A stretch of DNA of 50,415 nucleotides. It comes from Deltaproteobacteria bacterium. GTDB lineage: Bacteria > Desulfobacterota > GWC2-55-46. Below are positions 448 to 46,333 of the stretch, one piece after another. A model generated the notes under the pieces. That model saw only the letters and a program-made list of their open reading frames with translations. It did no database searches and was not told the origin of the DNA. How positions within the stretch are numbered: the stretch's first letter is position 1; every line of letters begins with the position of its first letter. The DNA is taken from assembly GCA_016213015.1 (NCBI GenBank), contig JACRCE010000101.1, forward strand, positions 1 through 50,415. The letters are read 5' to 3'. The translations under genes were made by a program, and so were the position numbers.

Positions 448-569
448 AGGCTGTTCAAAAAGCCTCAGATGCGAGGCGGCGAGGAGCGACGAATGAGACG
501 CACTTTGTTGTGCGTCGCAGTGAGGAGCGACGAGACAACAAAGCAGATGCGGCTTTTTCAACAGCCTGC
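448..569. repeat. repeat family A, copy 1
   Basis: About 122 bp bounded by GGCTGTTCAAAAAGCC and GGCTTTTTCAACAGCC. Inside are two GGAGCGACGA boxes around a small central hairpin (GACGCACTTTG / TTGTGCGTC). Copies 2 and 3 are at 13659-13782 and 34802-34975. The repeat ends 2-3 bp before the polX start codon, so it occupies the place where a ribosome-binding site would be. Confidence 0.85.
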
Positions 570-11168: not shown

Positions 11169-13823
11169 TTACCGCGCCTCGGCCTCCGGCGCACATAATA
11201 CCTCGCCGATCTCGACGAACGGAGAGCCGGTCGGAACCACGGGCAGTTCAAAAACGCACCTTGCGCCCATGTGCTCGCTGGTTCCGGCATAGCGCACAGC
11301 GGACTTCACGGCCTTTTTCCCGGCCGACGCCGTCTTTCCGGCGGCTAAGGCGGCGCATCCGTCGCCGGTTACAGCAGGGGTTTCGGCCTCCTCGAAATAA
11401 AACTCGCCGTCCCTGCCGGTCGGGAAGGTTATCGTGCCCGCGCCGGTCTTAAGCGATACATCCTGAAATTCGATCGGCTTCAAACCGCCCTCCGTTTGCG
11501 CCTTGAGCGAGCCGGTGTACGATATTGTCTTCCTCACGTCAAAGGACAGGCATGAGCCGCTTCTCAACGGCGGAGAGACGAACTTCATCGCGCCCTCCAT
11601 CCTGTACTCCATCGGCACGTCGCTTGTATCGATGGACACCTGATTGTCGTAATACGAGTTGAGCGCGGGCACGAATACAACGCCGTTTGCATCGGTCTTT
11701 CCGATCCGCTGGTTGTTGACGTAGGCGCGCACGCCCTCTATATCGCCGACCTTGATCATGGCAAAACTGTCCGTTATCGGCCTTGTGAGGGCAACCGTAT
11801 CCCCGACGTAGGCGACCGCTCCGGCGGCCGAGAGATCATACGTCTCATAGCCCTGACCGCCGCTCGCAACCTTCACGTCAGCCCTGTAGAGCGCAGTGGC
11901 CGTATTGACGTTGACCGTGGGATTGAGAAGATATGACGCGCTCCTGCCCGCAACGCCGTTTCTCTCCGTTGATACCCTGTAGCCCCATCCCTCGGAGTTG
12001 GCCGGGGCAGGCCGCTGAGCCTGAACGTTCAACGAGCTCGATCCGCTCGTCTTTTGATAGTTCGTCGATACCGAGGAGTCTTTGTCGAAGTAATAGACAA
12101 AGCCAAGAAACGCCTCCGTTGACGACCGCGCCTCCACCCTTCTTTTCAGCGTGGCAAGCATTGTTGCCGAATCGAAAACGCCCTTTGAGTATGAGAGCGT
12201 CGCCGTCTTCGAGCCTGTGCCGACGTACATTGCGCTTATCGAATAATCGAGCGACACGGAACCGTAGCGCTTGAATCCCCTGCTTATGCCCGCTCCGGCC
12301 TCGTACTTGGAGGTCGATGGCGCGCCGTCTACTATGTTGGCGTAGTTTCTGCTGAAACCCCTGAACAAGAGGCGCGTGCTCGTGTCCTTGCCCTGATAGT
12401 TGTGATTGGCCGACGCGCCGACGCCTCCGCCGGATCTGCTTTTGCCGGCGACAACCGCCGTTGAAATCAGCCCCAAGTCCTTTACCGGAAAGATAAACTC
12501 CGGGCCGATATGCGCGACTCCAGCGCCCGTCTCGGCCTGAACCCCGAGGGTCAGGAAATCCTCATAGCCCCAGCGATGGGATGCGCTCATCACGGCATGG
12601 CCGTAGCTGTTGCTCTCGTTGCCATAAGATTTGCGGATAAGCCCTCCGTTATAACTGTACTCGTGAAGCCCCTTCTTGAGCATCTTGTCGGTCTGATAGA
12701 ACGGATGGACGATCCTTTGCACGTTGCCGAAGGCGTCCCTTATAAGCACCTCGGCCTTGTGAGCGCCGGTGGTGTAGGCGATGTTCCTCAGGTCGAACCC
12801 GCCCGGTGCGACCTTGTCGCTTCTCAACTTTATGTCGTCCACGTAGACCTCCACGTCGGAAGCCGATTCGGAAACGCCGCTTACGTTCAACGTAGGGTAC
12901 TTGGTGAAGTACGGATCCATCCTGTAGGACTTGGAAAGGCTGAAACCCCCCATGTTCACCGTGCTGCCGAGGTCTCCGCTGGAGGCGAAAAAATCTCCGG
13001 CAACCACCCTCTTGAGTTCGGGCCGGTCGTCGAACGTAAGGTTGGTTTGGAGTCTTACGAATCTTGACGACAGGTCATCGGACGTATAGGACGAATCGGT
13101 CATAAAAAGCATGTCGCTTGACCTCATGCCGAGCTGATTCGTGATATTAAAGCTTCTCATCTTCATCGAATCGCCGCCGATATAGCCGAGCTTGTAGTTC
13201 AAAAACGCGCTTGAATCCCTTGGGCGGTAGACGCTGCTCGCCCTTGCCGGGGTAAAGTCTATCGCGCGCCGCGGGAAAAGCTCGGCTGAGGCGGTCAGAT
13301 CAAGGGACAGATACTTTTCGTTGAATCTGTAGGTCAGTCCCTTCATGGAACGAAGCGATATATGCTCTTCATTTTCAATGATGGTTTTCGTCCCGGGCAG
13401 GTCAAGGAAACCAAGGGATGCGAGGTCAACTGTACGCACGAGAAAATCGCCGTCATCCTCCATTACGACGAAGTTTTCCCCTTTGACATCCATATTGACG
13501 ATGACGTTTACTACGATGGTTTGCGAGGCGCGGGCCTCGGACAACTGGAATACCGGCGACAGGACTACGATGAAAAAGAATAACAACCCGGCGAACCGGC
13601 TTTGCCGGAGAGTCGGGCAAATAGCTATAGTAGCTTGCTGAAAAACTCTACTTTTGTACAGACTGCTCAAAAACGTCCAGATGCAAGGCGTCAAGGAGCG
13701 ACGAATGAGGCGTACTTTGCTTGTACGCCGCAGTGAGGAGCGACGCAGACAACGCAGCAGATGGGCGTTTTTCAGCAGTCTGATAGAGGCTTGCTTACGG
13801 ACGGCACATAGCCTCATTGACAT
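11169..13823 (-). CDS. outer-membrane fimbrial usher, archaic (CsuD-like) type
   Basis: Pore protein that assembles and secretes chaperone-bound pilus subunits. The body from about residue 100 shows an N-terminal domain (QTIVVNVIVNMDVKGE), a long beta-barrel, the conserved AEVLIRDAFGNVQ plug-region stretch, and C-terminal GVRAYVNNQRIGKTDANG and SYYDNQVSIDTSDVP segments typical of ushers. A signal-peptide core (LLFFFIVVLSPVF...EARA) lies near residues 80-99. The first in-frame ATG at 13823 overlaps the chaperone gene, and the frame then runs through all of repeat A copy 2 before reaching the signal peptide. No ATG lies between; only TTG, CTG or ATA/ATT codons do. The true start is therefore unsettled. 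The size after signal cleavage is about 785 aa. Confidence 0.85.
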   Translation of the reverse strand: MSMRLCAVRKQASIRLLKNAHLLRCLRRSSLRRTSKVRLIRRSLTPCIWTFLSSLYKSRVFQQATIAICPTLRQSRFAGLLFFFIVVLSPVFQLSEARASQTIVVNVIVNMDVKGENFVVMEDDGDFLVRTVDLASLGFLDLPGTKTIIENEEHISLRSMKGLTYRFNEKYLSLDLTASAELFPRRAIDFTPARASSVYRPRDSSAFLNYKLGYIGGDSMKMRSFNITNQLGMRSSDMLFMTDSSYTSDDLSSRFVRLQTNLTFDDRPELKRVVAGDFFASSGDLGSTVNMGGFSLSKSYRMDPYFTKYPTLNVSGVSESASDVEVYVDDIKLRSDKVAPGGFDLRNIAYTTGAHKAEVLIRDAFGNVQRIVHPFYQTDKMLKKGLHEYSYNGGLIRKSYGNESNSYGHAVMSASHRWGYEDFLTLGVQAETGAGVAHIGPEFIFPVKDLGLISTAVVAGKSRSGGGVGASANHNYQGKDTSTRLLFRGFSRNYANIVDGAPSTSKYEAGAGISRGFKRYGSVSLDYSISAMYVGTGSKTATLSYSKGVFDSATMLATLKRRVEARSSTEAFLGFVYYFDKDSSVSTNYQKTSGSSSLNVQAQRPAPANSEGWGYRVSTERNGVAGRSASYLLNPTVNVNTATALYRADVKVASGGQGYETYDLSAAGAVAYVGDTVALTRPITDSFAMIKVGDIEGVRAYVNNQRIGKTDANGVVFVPALNSYYDNQVSIDTSDVPMEYRMEGAMKFVSPPLRSGSCLSFDVRKTISYTGSLKAQTEGGLKPIEFQDVSLKTGAGTITFPTGRDGEFYFEEAETPAVTGDGCAALAAGKTASAGKKAVKSAVRYAGTSEHMGARCVFELPVVPTGSPFVEIGEVLCAPEAEAR
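13659..13782. repeat. repeat family A, copy 2
   Basis: 124 bp bounded by CAGACTGCTCAAAAACG and CGTTTTTCAGCAGTCTG, with the two GGAGCGACG boxes and a central hairpin GGCGTAC-TTTGCTT-GTACGCC. It lies between the chaperone stop (13795) and the usher signal peptide, in the usher's open frame. Confidence 0.9.
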
Positions 13824-16067: not shown

Positions 16068-16169
16068 GCACCCTGCGCTTCATCCCCGTCCAATGATGTC
16101 GGCTCAAAAAAACTCTTGAGCGGCCTTTCAATCCACGAAAAGGCATCATCGAAATATCTATCGTGTATC

Positions 16170-16301
16170 AGGGCAGGTCTTCTGGCTTCCGGCTCCTCCT
16201 ACCGGCCAACCTTCCCAGGAGGTCTCCCCCAGTGGTCTCGTTGGCGTTCGTCCCCGGTTACAGCGGCGGGACCGCTCCCGATTCTACACGGGATTCCCTT
16301 T
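16170..16301 (-). promoter_or_regulatory. cobalamin riboswitch
   Basis: Read on the minus strand: AAAGGGAATCCCGTGTAGAA, GGAGCGGTCCCGCCGCTGTA, ACCACTGG, GGGAAGG, and finally the near-invariant GCCGGAAGCCAGAAGACCTG. This order of boxes is the B12-element consensus. About 100 nt later comes a terminator, then bzaF. No TPP-box (THI) motif was found. Confidence 0.93.
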
Positions 16302-16304
16302 TAA

Positions 16305-16444
16305 GGTTGGCTCTAAAAATTGCTTTTTCCCCGATTTCTGCGTCATGGCGAAAATAAAAATGCTCACATATTAATTATATGCTCCGCTTTTTATTTTCGC
16401 CCTTCCTTGAACTCGGAAAAAATTTCTAATTTTTAGAGGCAACC
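16305..16444. repeat. repeat family D, copy 1 (complete)
   Basis: 140 bp with ends GGTTGGCTCTAAAAATT and AATTTTTAGAGGCAACC, internal arms GGCGAAAATAAAAATGC / CGCTTTTTATTTTCGCCC, and an AT-rich centre. Its left edge meets the 5' end of the riboswitch. On the minus strand the centre holds TATAAT (16374-16379), a candidate -10 box for the bzaF leader. Copy 2 is at 46096-46333. Confidence 0.9.
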
Positions 16445-16446
16445 TT

Positions 16447-23330: not shown

Positions 23331-23485
23331 CATCAGCCCAAACGTTTGTTCCTAATTAAAGTTCTTTGGCTTACCGTTGGCTAACCTACGGTCAGCCCCG
23401 GCAAGGAATTGCTCATTTTGAAGCCGGCCTTATCGCGCTTTCAGCGCGAGCCGTCCGGCAACCGGTCTTTCAAGAAAGGTAAGTC
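23331..23485. repeat. repeat family B, long form, copy 1
   Basis: TTCCTAATTAAAGTTCTTTG, GGCTAACC, GGCAAGGAATTGCTCATTTT, CTTATCGCGC-TTTCA-GCGCGAGCCG, CAACCGG, TTTCAAGAAAGGTAAG. Its right part lies inside the end of grpE and encodes the last residues of that protein. It fills the grpE-dnaJ gap. Confidence 0.85.
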
Positions 23486-25485: not shown

Positions 25486-25774
25486 CTTACCTTTCTTTCA
25501 AGAAAGGGCGCTTGCAGCGTCGGCCATATGAGCTGCAGCCTGCCCCAGAATGTATTTATCGTGGGTTAGCCCGTCTGCTTATTCCCTGTTAAAGTTCTTT
25601 GGCATGCCGCTGGCTAACCGCGGGTTACTCCGGCAAGGAATTGCTCATTTTGAAACCACGTCTTATCGCGCCCAGCACCACTTTGCAATACGAGACTTGT
25701 CAAACGATACGCTTTTGTGACACGAAGTGGCGCTGGGCGCGAGTCGCCGTGTAACCGGTGTTTCAAGAAAGGTT
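25486..25774. repeat. repeat family B, long form, copy 2, with inserted hairpin
   Basis: Occupies the 327-bp gap between rpoZ and gmk. Left part CTTTCTTTCAAGAAAGG and TTATTCCCTGTTAAAG, then GGCTAACCG, GGCAAGGAATTGCTCATTTT, CTTATCGCG, and on the far side GCGCGAG, GTAACCGG, TTTCAAGAAAGG. At its centre (25668-25740) is a 73-bp hairpin related to the one in repeat A copy 3. No gene is visible here. Confidence 0.85.
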
Positions 25775-25788
25775 TGCGGGATCGCGTT

Positions 25789-34801: not shown

Positions 34802-34975
34802 AGGCCGCTCAAAAACGCTCAGATGCAAGGCGTCAAGGAGCGACGAATGAGCCCAGCGCCACTTTGCTACACGAAGGAATTTGTCAAGCAACATGCTTTC
34901 GTAATCCAAAGTGGCGCTGGGCGCAGTGAGGAGCGACGCAGACAACGCCGCAGATGGGCGTTTTTCAGCGGCCTG
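34802..34975. repeat. repeat family A, copy 3, with enlarged central hairpin
   Basis: Outer parts as in copies 1 and 2 (GCCGCTCAAAAACG, GGAGCGACGAATGAG, GCAGTGAGGAGCGACGCAGA, CGTTTTTCAGCGGC). The small central hairpin is replaced by a 72-bp one (34851-34922) with CCCAGCGCCACTTTGC and AAAGTGGCGCTGGGC arms. The right end supplies the final LAGR codons and the TGA of the CgeB-like gene. Confidence 0.9.
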
Positions 34976-46095: not shown

Positions 46096-46333
46096 GGTTG
46101 CCTCTAAAAATTAGAAAGTTTTTCCGAGTTCGAGGAAGGGCGAAAATAAAAAGCGCAGCATATACGCTAATATGTGAGCATTGGGCCAACCGCAAAAGCG
46201 CGGTTAGCCTCGGTAAGGAATTGCTCATTTTGAAAGCGCGTCTTATCGCGCCTGCGGCGCGAGCCGACGGGCAACCGATCTATTTTCGCCCTGACAAGGA
46301 AATCGGGAAAAATAGCAATTTTTAGAGGCAACC
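46096..46333. repeat. repeat family D, copy 2, interrupted by a family B piece
   Basis: Ends GGTTGCCTCTAAAAATT and AATTTTTAGAGGCAACC, with the same inner arms as 16305-16444. Family D is cut after GTGAGCATT and resumes at TATTTTCGCC; in between lie about 98 bp (46183-46280) of family B. Its right end encodes the GCL tail and stop of waaC. The remainder of the waaC-PAP2 gap shows no gene. Confidence 0.9.
46183..46280. repeat. repeat family B piece nested in repeat D
   Basis: GGCCAACCG, GGTAAGGAATTGCTCATTTT, CGTCTTATCGCGC, GCGCGAGCCG, GGCAACCG: the core of the long family B form as at 23331-23485, without the outer TTAAAGTTCTTTGG and TTTCAAGAAAGG parts. Confidence 0.85.

Follow-up and report, generated by a model that had tools for sequence, protein, structure and literature searches.

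A short hairpin module at the centres of unrelated palindromic repeats and in the RNase P RNA of a deltaproteobacterial draft genome and its relatives

Introduction

When peripheral helices of RNase P RNA and rRNA expand or are replaced, slow mutational growth is the usual explanation. Composite repeats such as ERIC, BOX and BIME are modular palindromes with inserts or sub-modules, an organisation which recurs in the repeats that house the hairpin described here (module M).

Several kinds of small mobile DNA resemble this module in one respect or another. Bacterial MITEs are like it in being small, non-coding and multi-copy, in having terminal inverted repeats and target duplications, and in the stem-loop of their transcript (PMC10969869); the terms “RNase P”, “nested” and “rRNA” appear nowhere in the text of this review of prokaryotic MITEs. 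REP/RAYT systems share with M the high copy number of small palindromes and their composite arrangements (PMC8266576, PMC2817692, PMC3733652), and REPs have been reported as targets of IS elements (PMC1525189). The Rickettsia palindromic elements (RPEs, cited in PMC10969869) show a further likeness, as they represent small palindromic mobile DNA residing in essential genes. In mitochondria, the double-hairpin elements (DHEs), sponge RHEs and yeast GC clusters persist unspliced in rRNA and other genes (PMC2800124), and they are similar to M as selfish hairpins in which the stems are conserved and the loops vary.

The window analysed here comprises 50,415 nucleotides and represents contig C74 of the draft genome of a groundwater bacterium (G000, hereafter the source genome), which has 2,265,301 bases in 117 contigs. 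Its initial annotation claimed that a 72-bp hairpin with TTGTCAA in the middle, located at the centre of repeat A copy 3, is related to a hairpin at the same place in repeat B copy 2, and proposed that such an apex is exchangeable, like a module inserted into existing palindromes. Confinement of the hairpin to one old repeat would have refuted this proposal.

Results

Module M in the window

The hairpin of repeat A copy 3 proved to be as described, with 72 nt and perfect outer arms of 16 bp (GCCCAGCGCCACTTTG...TTGTCAA...CAAAGTGGCGCTGGGC; Table 1). For repeat B copy 2, a 73-bp hairpin had been claimed at 25668-25740; a related hairpin is indeed present inside this span, but it extends over 67 bp only. 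The short central hairpins attributed to the other copies of A and B were all seen. Analysis of RNA structure, which had been suggested as a check on the module, came out in its favour: relative to dinucleotide shuffles, both window copies fold far below expectation (z of -8.9 for M of A copy 3 and -7.6 for M of B copy 2), and the whole repeat A copy with M gives z of -8.0. The repeat B core at the centre of repeat D (ends GGTTGCCTCTAAAAATT) is a second exchangeable level, a palindrome within a palindrome.

The Rfam search of the window yielded a cobalamin riboswitch and one tRNA, and nothing else. This riboswitch (16155-16330, minus strand) adjoins a repeat D copy at ~16330-16445.

Table 1. 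Positions of module M, its host repeats and the M-free apices in the window
Feature	Position	Strand	Remarks
Module M, apex of repeat A copy 3	34851..34922	+	70 bp core 34852-34921 plus flanking G-C pair
Host repeat A copy 3, M at centre	34803..34975	+	palindrome GGCCGCTCAAAAACG...CGTTTTTCAGCGGCC
Module M, diverged B subtype, 67 bp, apex of repeat B copy 2	25671..25737	+	flanks CGCG[M]CGCG
Host repeat B copy 2, core palindrome	25616..25775	+	outer arm runs on to ~25568
Repeat A copy 1, short apical hairpin without M	497..516	+	GACGCACTTTGTTGTGCGTC
Repeat A copy 2, short apical hairpin without M	13710..13728	+	GCGTACTTTGCTTGTACGC
Repeat B copy 1, short apical hairpin without M	23434..23448	+	CGCGCTTTCAGCGCG
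Repeat B core nested in repeat D (~46098-46331)	46196..46290	+	short apex 46247-46261 CGCGCCTGCGGCGCG, without M

Copies and host repeats in the source genome

With the arm CCCAGCRCCACTTTG and up to two mismatches, 147 and 158 matches were obtained on the two strands of the source genome, compared with 3 and 5 for the reversed control, while a strict two-arm pattern detected 107 copies in its 2.27 Mb (control 0). The small size (64-73 bp), the lack of coding and the high copy number fulfil the respective criterion of a MITE. At least four palindromic repeats that are unrelated to one another (A, B, C and D) can carry M in their centre. Automatic classing of 64 distinct copies assigned 34 of them to C, 18 to A, five to D, three to rnpB and one to B; of the three left unclassed, inspection by eye placed one in D, one in B and one in a further palindrome, CGTACCG[M]CGGTACG. 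The search for the module alone and within other palindromes, as recommended initially, therefore supports an exchangeable apex, and the hairpin is not confined to one old repeat, since its hosts are several and unrelated both in the source genome and in the relatives. The picture of simple insertion needs one refinement: in most hosts M replaces the old apical hairpin instead of being added to it.

A tree of 40 different M copies contains at least 11 changes of host label, with a minimum of 8 for nine labels and a mean of 22 after shuffling. The B copies and the D copies each form one supported group, and the A and C copies are partly intermixed. These changes suggest several entries of M into its hosts followed by copying along with the host repeat, within the limits of a weakly resolved tree.

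A further dispersed small hairpin (CCCCCGCTTAAA...GCGAGGGCAGGC) was noted in G004, where it occupies the loop of one M copy (L248 2501-2678), and near repeat A of the source genome (L047 near 1502), and a third one (TTCCCATTGC...GCAATGGGAA) is recurrent in the repeat A arm of the source genome and in G004 (L033, L025, L040 and L158 flanks). Separately, M lies within 60 bp of a tRNA gene in 5 of 174 copies, with ~1.4 expected (L189, L192, L225, L236), and one tRNA-Ala is flanked by M on both sides.

Filled and empty copies of repeat C

Repeat C (TTAAGGAAGCTCTGATTAATTC...GAATTAATCAGAGCTTCCTTAA) carries apex alleles of the type GATTGCCGCG-CCGCGAAAGCGCGG-CTCGCAATGACA and their variants, found in 84 places in all, as well as CTTTG loops. 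In the same frame, M stands in place of the short apex (GATTGCCGCG-M-CTCGCAATGACA). An empty copy, GATTGCCGCGCAATGACA, reads GTCATTG-CGCG-GCAATC (contig C31, L242), while the filled copies, e.g., L001, read GATTGC-CGCG-[M]-CGCG-CAATGACA, the reverse complement being GTCATTG-CGCG-[M]-CGCG-GCAATC. Therefore, the difference between the empty and filled copies consists of M and a 4-bp CGCG duplication.

The left end of C (GGAAGCTCTGATT / GGAAGCTCTGATTTATTC) is located directly upstream of an IS5-type DUF772 (PF05598) transposase fragment at the end of contig C49 (L272). Judging from this sequence context, repeat C is probably a MITE of the IS5-type element present as a fragment in the source genome, and M seated in C would be multiplied together with it. 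A C-type element without M, which has the C ends and another interior (GTCATGCCCGAGGACTTTAATCGGGCATCCAG), was noted in the window at 203-418.

Distribution in relatives and conservation of the ends

A covariance model built from 27 M copies revealed M in nine relatives besides the source genome, with at least 27 matches in each of G003, G004, G010, G018, G043, G044 and G057, two in G013 and one marginal match in G051. By the strict pattern, carriers constitute 9 of the 63 genomes of the class, and their distribution is patchy. Scanning of named genomes gave “Deltaproteobacteria bacterium” NC_groundwater MAGs, with Pr3 as the site of nearly all of them and Pr1 as that of one, and in addition one Elusimicrobia MAG and one unclassified bacterium; the groundwater study is PMC7906910. 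Viral contigs, phages and plasmids yielded no match, which speaks against the spread of M by phages or plasmids.

Among 148 distinct copies, conservation is mostly 92-100% at arm positions 1-14 (with A or G at position 7) and drops to 38-77% from position 15 inward, which fulfils the MITE criterion of conserved terminal inverted repeats with a variable interior. Across species, only the inverted repeat formed by the outer 14 bp (CCCAGCRCCACTTT) is strongly conserved, as expected of ends read by a protein.

Target sites

Of 109 distinct sites in the relatives, 15 have direct repeats of 4 bp or more immediately next to M, with 2.5 expected from swapped partners, and only one has repeats of 5 bp or more. 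The duplications seen were TCAA, TAAA, CCCG, TTTCG, CTTG, CATG, CGCG and CGTG. The 4-bp excess together with the CGCG empty/filled pair of repeat C fulfils the MITE criterion of a fixed-length target duplication, and in this respect M behaves like a MITE. Most M sites have no duplication, which is expected if duplications decay or if M replaces an apex.

At the same 109 sites, flanks that pair as inverted repeats over 5 bp or more were found 18 times, 15 times the expectation of 1.2, and M may occupy the exact centre of a palindrome, e.g., AACCCCTTTTG[M]CAAAAGGGGTT (L215). The swapped-partner control preserves composition but not the local symmetry of intergenic DNA. Stem pairs joining the M flanks are in modest excess (P about 0.004), and our first flank-pairing measure over 25 nt did not discriminate. 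Neither a duplication nor a palindromic seat is present in a large share of copies; about half or more of the M copies in relatives have no clear hairpin tip, and many are away from any. In relatives, some sites lie in intergenic DNA or terminator-like hairpins, and others in RNA genes, namely those of RNase P RNA and, in one case, of 23S rRNA.

RNase P RNA and other RNA genes

The single RNase P RNA gene found in the source genome (545 nt; 270 bits vs. a gathering score of 100) contains three M modules, at P3, P12 and P19. The helix names were assigned by means of the RF00010 alignment and the usual architecture of class A RNase P RNA. The same three helices are occupied in G044, where the P12 and P19 copies are nearly identical, while M is located at P3 and P9 in G057 and at P12 in G010 and G003. 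In P3 of G043, M is nested in M, the inner copy lying between CGTG direct repeats. At all these seats M replaces whole rnpB hairpins, and the nested G043 copy is the only one with a target duplication.

The conserved rnpB core is intact in all carriers except G003. In this gene (L150), a P3-like flank passes to the P12 side via a single M and the gene middle is missing, which may be a misassembly or a real deletion between two M copies. Each of the carriers G000, G010 and G057 clusters with relatives whose rnpB is free of M (G009/G017, G004/G007 and G051, respectively) in the rnpB tree, and several independent entries of M are therefore likely. Mobile DNA thus appears to remodel a core ribozyme hairpin by hairpin. 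The literature searched, the coverage of which was incomplete, contained no bacterial report of mobile palindromic hairpins in RNase P RNA.

Separately from M, the stem CCCCGAT..ATCGGGG was observed at P3 and P14 of rnpB in G051 (L127) and G056 (L129), and also at P9 and P12 in G056, which gives the impression that a single hairpin spread by copying to further rnpB arms.

In a contig labelled as part of an Elusimicrobia MAG (L157), M is located at the 3' end of a 23S rRNA gene; by sequence, it replaces the tip of what we take to be helix 101. For LSU rRNA in the source genome, no match was obtained in the MAGs. The presence of M in tmRNA was considered and rejected by lengths only: three full tmRNAs of carriers are of the normal 349-355 nt, so that no M is expected.

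Search for a transposase and a parent element

No transposase for M was found. An autonomous element with M ends was not found in 332 kb of the source genome, where the arms pair up within about 180 bp. Nearly all exact arms of G004 likewise have their partner at such a distance, and inspection of the surroundings of exact arms that seemed unpaired (14 in G004 and one in G057) gave no such parent, since the partners always lay within about 180 bp. The Y1 transposase (PF01797, TnpA_REP) had no match in the source genome, G004, G018 or G044. Two further candidates were rejected: DDE_Tnp_1 (PF01609), which had no match in the source genome and was found only in G018, and the DUF772 (PF05598) fragment, present once in the source genome, the upstream end of which matches the repeat C ends and not those of M.

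Discussion

We favour, with moderate confidence, the interpretation of M as a transposase-dependent, MITE-like mobile hairpin, which inserts preferentially at palindrome centres, takes the place of the former apex and gains copies through its host repeats. This rests on observations of dispersed copies with conserved ends, of 4-bp duplications and a single empty site, and of apex replacement and several host families. The transposase is inferred: M would be a non-autonomous element, the 14 bp terminal inverted repeat of which is recognised in trans, and its insertion would generate the 4-bp target duplication. Insertion may prefer palindromic targets such as CGCG and palindrome centres, although a true target preference, rather than survival, is also an inference. 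At a hairpin tip, M would only lengthen the stem and could be tolerated even in terminators and RNase P RNA; the redundant old apex would then be lost, the order of these two events being inferred as well. Seated in the centre of other mobile palindromes, M would be multiplied with them, giving rise to the 100+ copies of the source genome. Against the MITE reading stand the failure to find an autonomous parent in the stretches searched, the lack of PF01609 and PF01797 matches in the source genome, the majority of sites without duplication and the copies in relatives that have no clear hairpin tip.

A less probable alternative, which nevertheless stays in contention, is hairpin-for-hairpin exchange, in which replication or break repair at a cruciform copies one apex over another via a few shared stem bases (CCC/GGG, GCC/GGC). 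Since the entry and exit sequences are reverse complements, such an exchange could deliver M in either orientation, and the old apex would disappear without any target duplication being made. This is what rnpB displays, where the old apical hairpins are gone without duplication. In the P3 helix of the clearest pair, from a single genus, GCTG-CCC-cgatgtaatatcg-GGG-TGG of G051 corresponds to GCTG-CCC-[M interior]-GGG-TGG of G057: the CCC/GGG base is exactly kept and the inner 13 nt are swapped out. The conversion of GATTGCCGCG-CCGCGAAAGCGCGG-CTCGCAATG into GATTGCCGCG-M-CTCGCAATG in repeat C, the occurrence of M in both orientations (12 and 6 copies in A, 31 and 3 in C) and the near-identity of the P12 and P19 copies of G044 fit this scheme too. 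It does not account for the marks of transposition, i.e., the duplications at 15 of 109 sites and the CGCG pair, nor for many M copies outside hairpins, and the restriction of conservation to the outer 14 bp resembles ends recognised by a protein.

A broader version, which is also less probable but not ruled out, is that whole apical hairpins pass from one palindrome or structured RNA gene to another, unrelated one by a DNA exchange process for which a few shared stem bases suffice. M would then be the most successful of such units, and a different stem, CCCCGAT..ATCGGGG, recurs at P3, P9, P12 and P14 in relatives of another family. If hairpin trading were true, RNA helices would evolve partly by swapping whole arms.

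It is quite improbable that M lacks any targeting, inserting everywhere and surviving only at hairpin tips, in terminators and in variable RNA arms. The sites are intergenic or in RNase P RNA arms that vary between relatives, and the excess of hairpin tips is modest outside the MITE hosts, as survival alone would predict. However, perfectly paired flanks are 15 times in excess, and rnpB is hit too often: with about 150 copies, three M in ~0.4 kb have a genome-wide P of about 3e-6, and when insertion is confined to non-coding DNA, which is assumed to make up 10% of the genome and to be equally tolerant throughout, P is still about 0.003 for the source genome and 1e-4 for G044.

False hosts made by short-read joins at repeated hairpins would be suspected in a draft MAG, the contigs of which often end in C or M elements, and the G003 rnpB does resemble P3-M joined to P12-M with the middle absent. 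Chimeric joins would mix the families, yet the left and right host arms are concordant in 54 of the 56 source copies with at least one classable arm (the two discordant ones being a D/B mosaic and a half-classed A), and the same rnpB arms hold M in several separately binned genomes, which makes an assembly artefact very improbable. Least credible of all is a functional RNA domain, e.g., a hairpin that binds a protein and has been co-opted by RNase P RNA along with further RNAs: the P12 and P19 copies of the source genome have unbroken 27-28 bp stems, more perfect than in the dispersed copies, and P12 bears a paired A-U to C-G change relative to these, but the patchy occurrence (9 of 63 genomes) and the copies with target duplications indicate a selfish element.

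Comparison with known systems

M does not qualify as a REP/RAYT system. The REP foot tags show no enrichment of note at 165 copies (GTAG near 3 and far 7, CGTC near 9 and far 3), and the Y1 transposase is missing from the four genomes searched. The RPEs are of ~150 bp and are known for inserting in-frame into protein genes, while M is shorter and is found in palindromes, terminators and RNA genes. The DHEs, RHEs and GC clusters are organellar; in contrast, M is located in bacterial chromosomes (MAGs), has 4-bp duplications and takes the place of original rnpB hairpins. Unlike ERIC, BOX and BIME, M represents one module common to several unrelated palindromes, to RNase P RNA and to several genera. 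M differs from the usual MITEs in having only 64-73 bp, in being almost entirely a hairpin and in residing in RNase P RNA and palindrome centres, and the search for its parent IS was without success.

Up to three arms of the only rnpB gene detected in a genome are thus represented by a selfish hairpin, in lineages whose closest sampled relatives have no M there. This offers a concrete and testable route for the gain and loss of arms in structured RNAs and accounts for the “Russian-doll” palindromes of the carrier genomes; palindrome centres would thereby be added to the preferred niches of bacterial MITEs.
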